This document shows, in pieces, positions 5,517 through 9,353 of a stretch of 37,255 bases of DNA. Each line of letters begins with the position of its first letter. Within the stretch, counting starts at the first letter, position 1. Under the pieces are notes generated by a model that worked only from the letters and a program-made list of their open reading frames with translations, did no database searches and was not told the origin of the DNA. Source of the DNA: Bradyrhizobiaceae bacterium. Lineage in GTDB: Bacteria; Pseudomonadota; Alphaproteobacteria; Rhizobiales; Xanthobacteraceae. The stretch spans positions 1 to 37,255 of the forward strand of contig CANKBJ010000016.1 of assembly GCA_947479905.1 (NCBI GenBank), read 5' to 3'. A program made the position numbers and the translations under genes.

Positions 5517-8500
5517 ATGCGTTATATCGAATTCGCCACCGCCTCGAATTTCTCGTTCCTGCGTGGCGCGTCGCATCCGGAAGAATTGATGGCGCAGGCG
5601 GTCCGCGTCGGGCTTGCCGGCATCGGCCTCACCGATCGCAATTCGGTCGCCGGCGTGGTCCGCGCACATCTGGCCAAGCGCGAGCAGAGCCTGCCGCTGA
5701 TCTATCACCCCGGCGTGCGGCTCGCCTTTGCCGACGGCACGCCGGACATCCTTGCTTATCCGCGCGACCGCGCCGGCTGGGGCCGGCTCACGCGCCTGCT
5801 CACGCTCGGCAATCTGCGCGGCAAAAAGGGTGAATGCGTTCTCGCGCTCGACGATCTGATCGCACATGCGTTCGGACTGGAACTGATCGCACTCGGCGGC
5901 AACAAGGCGTTGCTCTCCCGCCTGCGCACCATCGCGCCCGGTCGCGTGCGGCTGGCAGCCAGCATGCTGCATCGTGGCCAGGACCGCGCCCGGCTGATGC
6001 GCCTCAAGGAGTTGGCGCGCGAATGCCAAGTGCCGCTGATCGCCATCAACGATGTGCATTATCATCATCCCGATCGCCGCCCGCTCGCCGACGTGCTGAC
6101 CTGCATCCGCGAAAAAACGACCATCGACCGCGCCGGCCGCAAGCTCGCCGCCAATGCCGAGCGTTATCTCAAGCCGCCGCAAGAAATGGCGCGGCTGTTC
6201 CGCGACGCGCCCGAAGCCATCGAAGAGACGCTCATTTTAAGCGAAGCGCTTACGTTTTCGCTGGATGAGTTGAAATACGAATATCCCGACGAGACCTTGG
6301 CCGGCTTCGACAATGCGCAGGACGCGCTGCGCCATCTGACCTATGAAGGCGCGGCGTTTCGTTACCCAGCAGGCCTGCCTGAGAAGGTGCGCGCCACGCT
6401 CGAGCACGAACTGGCGCTGATCGCGCAACTCGCATACGCGCCCTACTTCCTCACCGTACACGACATCGTCCGCTATGCCCGCTCGCAGAAGATCCTGTGC
6501 CAGGGCCGCGGCTCGGCCGCCAATTCGGCGGTGTGCTTCTGTCTCGGCGTCACCGAGGTCGATCCCGACCGCGCCGATCTGCTGTTCGAGCGTTTCATCT
6601 CGCCGGAGCGGCGCGAGCCGCCCGACATCGATGTCGACTTCGAGCACGAGCGGCGCGAGGAGGTCATCCAGTACATCTACCGGAAATACGGCCGCGAGCG
6701 CGCCGGCATCGCCGCCACCGTCATCTCTTATCGCGGGCGCTCCGCCATCCGCGAAGTCGGCAAGGCCTTCGGATTGTCGGAGGACACAATCGGCGCGCTG
6801 GCCTCCTCGATCTGGGGCGCCGGCGGCGACGGCCGCGCCGATCTCGCCCGCGCCGGGCTCGATCCCGACAGCCGCCGCGTCAGGCAGATTTCGGCGCTGG
6901 CGCGCGAGATCGTCGGTTTCCCGCGCCATCTGTCGCAACATGTCGGCGGCTTCGTCATCACGCGCAGCCGGCTCGACGAGGTGATGCCGATCGGCAATGG
7001 CGCCATGCCGGAGCGCACCTTCGTCGCATGGGACAAGGACGATCTCGACGCGCTCGGCATTCTGAAAATCGACGTGCTTGGCCTCGGCATGCTGAGTTGC
7101 ATCAGGAAGGCGCTCGATCTGGTGGAGCAGCATTACTCTGCTTTACCTCCCCCGCTTGCGGGGGAGGTCGCCACGCGAAGCGTGGCGGGAGGGGGCTCGT
7201 CTGCAAACGCCGAACAAATATTTTCCCCCTCCCCAACCCTCCCCCGCAAGCGGGGGAGGGAGAAAGAGAGGCTGTCGCTTGCCACTATTCCGGCCGAGGA
7301 CCCCGCCGTCTATCGCATGCTGCAACGCGCGGATTCGCTCGGCGTGTTTCAGGTCGAGAGCCGCGCGCAAATGACCATGCTGCCGCGCCTCAAGCCCAAG
7401 AACTTCTACGATCTCGTCATCGAAGTGGCGATCGTCCGCCCCGGCCCTATCCAGGGCGACATGGTGCATCCTTATCTGCGCCGACGGCAGGGCCTGGAAA
7501 CGGTCACCTATCCGTCGCCGGAACTGGCAGCGGTGCTGTCGAAGACGCTCGGCGTGCCGCTGTTCCAGGAGCAGGCGATGAAGATCGCCATCGTCGCCGC
7601 CGGCTTCACGCCGTCGGAAGCCGACAAATTGCGCCGCGCCATGGCGACCTTCAAGCGCGTCGGCACCATCGGCACGTTCCAGCGCAAGATGATCGACGGC
7701 ATGCTGGCCAATGGCTATGAGCGCGCCTTCGCCGAACGCTGCTTCCAGCAGATCGAAGGCTTCGGCGAATACGGCTTTCCGGAAAGCCACGCGGCGAGCT
7801 TCGCGCTTCTGGTTTACGCCTCGGCCTGGCTGAAATGCCATTACCCGGATGTTTTCGCGGCGGCGCTTCTGAATGCGCAGCCGATGGGCTTCTACGCGCC
7901 GGCGCAGATCGTGCGCGACGCGCGCGATCACGGCGTCGAGGTGCGCCCGCCGGACGTCAATCATTCGCAATGGGATTCGACATTGGAGCCTGGCGCGCTG
8001 GCGGCTGCTCAAGTCGGCTATAGCCGACTTGAGCCATTAGCATTGCCGATCTCGGGTAAACCCGAGATCGGTGTGCACGATCTGCACCGCGAGATGGCGG
8101 GCGACATCCGCAGCACGCACGCGATCCGCCTGGGGTTGCGCGAGATCAAGGGACTCTCTGAAGAGGACGCCAGACTCATCGTCGAGAAGCGCGATGCGCT
8201 CTTATCGCTAGATGATGCCTCTCGATCATCGTTCCCTCCCCCCTTGTGGGGGAGGGACAGGGAGGGGGGTGAATCTCCGGCGATTGCGTCATACACCCCC
8301 CTCCCCAACCCTCCCCCACATAGCTCGCCGGACGGCGAGCGTCCGCTCGCCTATGGGGGGAGGGAGAAGAAAAACTACGACTCCGCGCGCGATGTCTGGC
8401 TGCGCACCGGGCTTTCGCCGCGCGTGCTGGAGCGGCTGGCCGATGCCGATGCCTTCAACTCGCTCGGCCTGACGCGACGCGACGCGCTGTGGGCGGCCAA

Positions 8501-9353: not shown

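Follow-up and report, generated by a model that had tools for sequence, protein, structure and literature searches.

The dnaE2 locus and its inserts

The window analyzed here, meaning the whole stretch of 37,255 nt, is one entire contig of a 266-contig assembly that is 87% complete; the genus studied is probably Pseudolabrys (Xanthobacteraceae, Hyphomicrobiales). An open dnaE2 gene lies downstream of an imuB-like gene (Table 1). Pfam places the polymerase, finger, helix-hairpin-helix, and OB domains of the product above their cut-offs and the PHP domain slightly below (25.3 bits vs. 26.4), and polymerase domains flank the inserts on either side. A frame at the expected place of imuA (3195–3953) has no Pfam match, and a short CTCTCCCC hairpin remnant is present in the gap between imuB and dnaE2 (window ~5458–5481).

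Table 1. Features of the imuB–dnaE2 region, in window coordinates
Feature	Coordinates	Strand	Remarks
imuB-like gene (IMS domains)	3805..5451	+	upstream of dnaE2; loop near residue 50 empty here
dnaE2, error-prone DNA polymerase III alpha-like subunit	5517..9353	+	ORF, 1278 aa, no stop; Pfam
Site N, fifth insertion loop	5886..5909	+	PHP domain, ~residue 127; empty in window, filled in 8/33 genomes
Insert A, CCTCCCC-type REP-like doublet	7145..7261	+	after residue 540, between PF07733 (polymerase) and PF17657 (finger)
Insert B, double palindrome, "family V" in this analysis	8007..8071	+	common to G033 and G038, once per genome
Insert C, CCTCCCC-type REP-like doublet	8233..8365	+	after residue 892
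Palindrome nested in right-hand hairpin loop of insert C	8320..8353 (approximate borders)	+	~33 nt, frame kept
Insert D, CCTCCCC-type REP-like doublet	8555..8671	+	stretch preceding OB-fold domain

The first-pass annotation had described three doublets and one double palindrome in frame within dnaE2, and its coordinates, open frame, and stems were all recovered; the elements as measured (117, 65, 133, and 117 nt for inserts A–D) add ~144 residues, close to its figure of ~146. Insert B is unrelated to the three CCTCCCC-type doublets, and all four are in frame. Stems were found at 7145–7168 and 7237–7260 in insert A, 8007–8034 and 8046–8071 in insert B, 8233–8257 in insert C, and 8555–8577 and 8648–8670 in insert D. 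RNA folding z-scores for the four stretches were −9.1, −9.8, −7.6, and −7.7, and none of the 200 shuffles per stretch reached the native fold stability. The leader and most of insert C are common to the window gene and G033, while the palindrome nested in insert C is absent from the counterpart element in that genome.

The same repeat architecture had been reported between genes of the window; this was borne out at three places, as a variant type of doublet (CCCTCCCCGTCTTCG...GGGGAGGG) at about 19066–19213, 20554–20677, and 21479–21629. By eye, these variant doublets flank genes for a histidinol dehydrogenase and a short-chain dehydrogenase, and the long right halves of those at 19066–19213 and 21479–21629 are near-identical. 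A CGTC-like pair (ATGGCCGGGCTTGACCCGGCCAT and its partner) follows an ABC transporter gene at 36271–36345.

Empty sites in close relatives

Alignment with the closest relatives (protein identity ~91%–95% upstream of site A), a comparison proposed in the first-pass annotation, identifies the four dnaE2 segments as lineage-specific inserts, because these relatives carry empty sites. Where empty, the loops measure 3–13 residues, as compared with 28–61 in the window dnaE2. Site A is filled in the window gene, G033, G040, and G003, and empty in G028, G037, G038, and G006; site B is filled only in the window gene, G033, and G038; site C is filled in the window gene, G033, G040, and G003, and empty in G028 and G038. 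Site D is filled in the window gene and empty in the close relatives, except that G028 retains 36 nt there as the remnant of a different repeat. Sites B and C were left out for G037, whose contigs lack residues 751–1002. Orthologs carrying the same peptides without palindromic DNA, which would speak against insertion, were absent from the alignments made. Assembly error is very unlikely as a source of the inserts: insert B is present in three species, filled sites occur in 20 of 35 genomes, and the one-contig genomes G007 and G042 are among those with filled dnaE2 sites.

Recurrent loops across the genus

At the threshold used, dnaE2 was identified in 35 of the 43 genus genomes, and 20 of these 35 have at least one filled site. 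Occupancy was 8/33 at site N, 9/34 at A, 3/30 at B, 10/33 at C, and 12/33 at D, such that 42 of 163 scored cells are filled. Site N is empty in the window dnaE2 and was therefore invisible from the window sequence alone. By parsimony, the dnaE2 tree needs no fewer than 31 gains or losses and a tree rebuilt with out-of-frame parts masked needs 32, some deep nodes of these trees being weakly supported. The repeats in the loops comprise CCTCCCC doublets, CGTC-like pairs, and a GTGTCCCGG-type repeat, with three unrelated families at each of sites A and D and two at N.

Families were assigned by short sequence patterns; three cells were entered by hand (G003 A, G003 C, G007 C), G030 A was dropped because its contig ends inside the insert, and six false CGTC calls, which had no extra length, were removed. 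The count includes several short or degenerate repeats (e.g., G042 A and D, G028 D) and leaves out a 28-residue extension at site N that carries no repeat signature (G025, G014, G013, and G002), as well as short additional segments at site C (G009 and G023).

Alignment to Escherichia coli Pol III alpha (PDB 5fku) places site A at residues 577–581, and length differences between the two proteins occur at or near all five sites; by this sequence comparison, the five sites are probably surface loops. By eye, the insert borders at one site vary between genomes, and empty sites have no evident shared target sequence.

Reading frame and selection

The frame is kept in 39 of the 42 filled cells. Breaks at an insert occur in the one-contig genome G007 at site C and in G003 at both A and C, a sequencing error being possible in G003; these broken frames indicate that harmful insertions occur. 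The site C insert of G007 (C1 ~3757350, L152) leaves dnaE2 in two frames. For the window gene against G028, G033, G037, G038, and G040, dN/dS in three long core regions was 0.04–0.16, rising to as much as 0.31 in two short regions beside inserts. Purifying selection acts on the dnaE2 core. The DxD motif region, which we take to be the active site, aligns with that of E. coli alpha.

Contrast with dnaE1 and imuB

The replicative paralog dnaE1, which has the same fold, was queried with its first 1069 residues. All 35 matches covering the query measure 3186–3234 nt (vs. 3207), and this compared part of dnaE1 therefore contains no insert; dnaE2 is likewise present in the genomes behind 28 of these matches, and another five genomes yielded partial matches, that of G005 in two pieces. 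Stems of at least 10 bp number 32 in 122 kb of dnaE2 (41 pieces), as compared with 3, 7, and 4 in codon shuffles, and none was found in 96 kb of dnaE1 (30 genes). In imuB, a single variable loop near residue 50 is covered in 27 genomes; it holds the CCTCCCC motif in G025 and G042 and is also lengthened in G002, G009, G013, and G014, those of G002 and G013 appearing CGTC-like by eye from their peptides. Strong stems in imuB are not above codon shuffles (3 vs. 1, 2, and 3), so the imuB case rests on these few lengthened loops.

The exact 19-mer core of the CCTCCCC family occurs 172 times in the 35 dnaE2-bearing genomes, with 10 copies within dnaE2 where ~0.18 would be expected by length, a roughly 55-fold excess; a binomial figure for this excess is too strong, since some copies are shared by descent. 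In G033, three of the six exact copies are within dnaE2. The gene is thus a strong outlier as a host for repeat elements. The first-pass proposal that such elements can enter coding sequence and be tolerated as linkers stands insofar as the inserts are lineage-specific and the frame reads through them; its extension to coding sequence in general is too broad for so unusual a host.

Repeat copies elsewhere in the genome and beyond the genus

A genome-wide search for copies, likewise suggested by the first-pass annotation, located the 19-mer core (at most one mismatch) at 25 places in the window genome, several of them inside domain-backed frames; a reversed control pattern returned none. Copies were placed by spanning frames and Pfam rather than by systematic gene calling. 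Three are within dnaE2. Matched sequence lies on both sides of the core in a hydantoinase (between two domains) and in a lipoyl acyltransferase (catalytic domain); one copy is in an N-terminal extension of UvrB; one precedes the exonuclease domain of DNA polymerase I, a less certain case given a nearby contig end and C-run; and two are N-terminal of TruB and PheT, where they are perhaps untranslated. Of the remaining 16 places, one is N-terminal of a VWA/CoxE-like frame; 10 are spanned by a long frame that Pfam does not match; at four, no frame of 150 codons spans the core; and the last (L083, 161 codons) falls outside the Pfam scan.

The acyltransferase case (L102 944–2305) concerns a dihydrolipoyl acyltransferase-like protein whose catalytic domain contains a single in-frame repeat. 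Near the start of the polA contig, a long C run stands beside the repeat (L094 ~135–180), and an assembly artifact is possible there. A double-palindrome family (CTCGGGTNNACCCGAG and its partner) sits inside another repeat's hairpin in five of its eight own-genome copies (L185, L186, L188, L190, and L191); stems of 9–11 bp close across these five nested copies, as in repeats inserting into repeats. The L189 copy looks similar by eye within a CGTC-like repeat, although it is closed by only 3 bp.

Outside the genus, 78 DnaE2 sequences of other records could be placed at each of sites A–D; two records, L003 and L005, are genus members. L032 carries repeat-like inserts at B and D, and weaker cases occur at A in L014 and at C in L012; proteins of outlying length that lack strong stems (e.g., L008, L061, and L082) and the misaligned L052 were left out of the count. 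An insert in L024 (Bradyrhizobium), just ahead of site C, has a peptide that resembles CGTC repeats by eye; it lies beyond the site limits of the scan, which covered sites A–D only. The dnaE2 inserts appear rarer outside the genus, the count there being a lower bound.

Orientation and the divergence of insert B

All 10 dnaE2 copies of the exact core, some of which are shared by descent, have the coding-strand orientation. So do the core copies at UvrB, Pol I, the hydantoinase, the acyltransferase, TruB, and PheT; the copy at the VWA/CoxE-like frame is antisense. Over 25 core copies, open frames number 34 in sense and 31 in antisense, and stop codons therefore do not explain the orientation bias. 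A looser pattern gave 22 sense and 4 antisense matches, each of the latter being the left arm of a symmetric element in which a sense match occurs as well; the orientation claim rests on the exact core only.

Insert B (31-mer, at most three mismatches) occurs once per genome, only in dnaE2, in 3 of 43 genomes. Between the window gene and G038 it is identical over 63 nt, while core windows of the same pair average 0.32 synonymous differences per site and 1.5% of 879 such windows are as low as insert B; tests across the three species are weaker (7.7% for all positions, 3.4% for third positions). Of the three differences in G033, two compensate each other by eye, the outcome expected if one palindrome arm had been copied from its partner. 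These data only suggest that the shared insert has diverged less than synonymous sites have, a pattern hard to square with inserts as neutral ballast.

Relation to known repeat systems

Palindromic repeats inside genes have a named precedent, contrary to the first-pass statement that no named equivalent was known in the Hyphomicrobiales: the available text of Di Nocera et al. (2013; PMC3733652) describes REPs from the GTAG and CGTC super-families within ORFs, with DnaE2 among the hosts. In that text, CGTC families belong mainly to Alphaproteobacteria; replication and repair genes are prominent among hosts, with DnaE2, uvrB, DNA polymerase I, and tRNA pseudouridine synthase B named; mutator effects of intragenic REPs are raised as speculation; and RPE-6 and RPE-4 are equated with CGTC-1 and CGTC-4 repeats. 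The elements described here are likewise short, palindromic, often paired, and situated within genes, and UvrB, Pol I, TruB, and DnaE2 are hosts here and among the genes named there (PMC3733652). As far as the sequence indicates, the window dnaE2 inserts lie wholly within an open gene with the frame kept, as intragenic REPs do. Unlike the GTAG and CGTC REPs of that account, the CCTCCCC family of the window has neither tag; and whereas REPs in genes of the same class are there reported at different sites, except in recB of two Xanthomonas species, the five dnaE2 loops have been filled repeatedly (PMC3733652).

The likeness to Rickettsia palindromic elements (RPE) lies in the in-frame palindromic inserts and in host proteins that are probably still functional; unlike RPE, which were compared by description only, a single gene here carries four elements in recurrent loops. 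As for REPINs, whose link with RAYT was defined by Bertels and Rainey (2011; PMC3116915), inserts A, C, and D are each an inverted REP doublet with a spacer that folds into one long hairpin, and the CCTCCCC family is dispersed (25 places); unlike REPINs (PMC3116915), no RAYT was found beside it. PF01797 had no match in the window genome (87% complete); at E ≤ 0.001 it matched five of the 43 genomes from the genus, four of these over the cut-off. None of the six PF01797 loci is flanked by CCTCCCC doublets; five have neither CCTCCCC nor GGGGAGG, and one has a single GGGGAGG. RAYT-driven spread of the family is therefore unsupported by the one family model searched.

For 22 of the 25 own copies, the sequence 3′ of the right-hand hairpin contained neither GTAG nor CTAC, the other three having no simple hairpin; this tag test covered 3′ flanks only, and another tag-like tetramer appeared in 3 of the 22. 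CGTC repeats are recognized by an unpaired CGTC (or TGTC, CCTC) tag, an 8–9 bp stem opening with A–T pairs, and a CCA tail. By eye, CCTCCCC stems open with C–G pairs and have no such tail, while the site D elements of G025, G014, and G013 show these CGTC features; some relatives also carry elements at sites A, D, and N that by eye look CGTC-tagged. Because the CCTCCCC family has no GTAG or CGTC tags and no adjoining RAYT was found, it is named a REP-like doublet here and is not filed as a REPIN. Rfam returned only matches far below family cut-offs, mostly microRNA models on hairpins. The kind of phenomenon, REPs inside DnaE2 and repair genes, has been known since 2013 (PMC3733652). No report of recurrent insertion loops in DnaE2 was found in the open-licence literature; the genus-wide recurrence in five loops, the contrast with dnaE1, the size of the excess, and the untagged CCTCCCC family in dnaE2 appear to be new, none having been found in print.

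Origin and persistence of the inserts

The explanation that we consider probable is that short dispersed hairpin repeats entered dnaE2 and persist in frame in permissive loops, tolerated by a conditionally needed mutasome. The inserts would be copies of REP-type doublets and of one double-palindrome family, all short, dispersed, and hairpin-forming; copies would survive if they fell in one of the five length-variable loops with a frame-keeping length and no stop. They would then be read through as Pro/Gly/Arg-rich linkers of ~20–60 residues, presumably disordered and perhaps neutral, while the polymerase core stays selected. If the cell requires the mutasome only when its DNA is damaged, it could bear a modest drop in mutasome activity or expression, and this conditional need may be why dnaE2, and imuB less so, gathers far more repeats than dnaE1. 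Several observations count against this explanation. The same genome has elements in probably important or essential genes (the UvrB extension, the lipoyl acyltransferase catalytic domain), and dispensability is therefore not the whole cause; the low divergence of insert B, the imuB stems, the failure to find a transposase linked to the CCTCCCC family, the non-random orientation, and the higher dN/dS (up to 0.31) in short stretches between inserts are further points against it.

An adaptive or regulatory role, which we regard as unlikely, would have dnaE2 mRNA hairpins (duplexes of ~21–22 bp) slow ribosomes or undergo RNase III cleavage, and the linkers change contacts of the polymerase or the mutasome, with mutagenesis tuned or mutators arising as a result. 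Consistent with this, the three doublets fold at −88 to −99 kcal/mol, inserts are carried by imuB and dnaE2 and by no compared part of dnaE1, the shared insert B is little diverged with its compensating pair in G033 (by eye), and the same gene class has been reported independently (PMC3733652). Yet the same loops are filled by different families and peptides and stand empty in close relatives, no filled site was found in 15 of 35 genomes (some with missing cells), and no inserted peptide is conserved genus-wide. The filling of the same loops by unrelated families would also follow if the insertion machinery preferred hot sites (single-stranded or hairpin DNA, transcribed SOS genes, or a resident repeat swapped by recombination), with targeting rather than tolerance producing the pattern. 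The double-palindrome copies within other repeats' hairpin stems (five of eight in this genome), the coding-strand orientation of all 10 exact dnaE2 cores despite similar open-frame counts, and the patchiness of sites A and C among sister species all point this way; however, borders vary at one site, empty sites share no evident target (both by eye), and the filled loops coincide with length variation of the fold, as tolerance alone predicts, making targeting quite unlikely as the main cause.

It is very unlikely, in our estimation, that the ImuB–DnaE2 genes are a preferred landing place of unrelated foldback families, entered on the coding strand by an SOS- or transcription-linked single-strand route, with hairpins then selected at the nucleotide level such that mobile repeats set the expression or activity of a mutator polymerase. 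Decay of dnaE2 into a pseudogene in this lineage, with the inserts as damage, is scarcely credible: the broken frames of G007 (site C) and G003 (sites A and C) are what it would produce, but the window gene is open, the frame is otherwise kept (39/42), long-core dN/dS is low (0.04–0.16), and the DxD region aligns with E. coli alpha, on which grounds this reading was rejected.

Under tolerance of dispersed repeats in permissive loops, natural insert alleles of dnaE2 should behave alike; were the inserts instead to tune the polymerase, damage-induced mutagenesis should differ between them. With one fold in two copies (dnaE1 and dnaE2) within one genus, these genomes amount to a natural replicated experiment on where a polymerase tolerates long inserts. 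The 2013 remark on REPs in DnaE2 and repair genes (PMC3733652) thereby becomes a testable pattern, and the contrast between dnaE1 and dnaE2 may show how the need for a gene governs the effects of selfish DNA.
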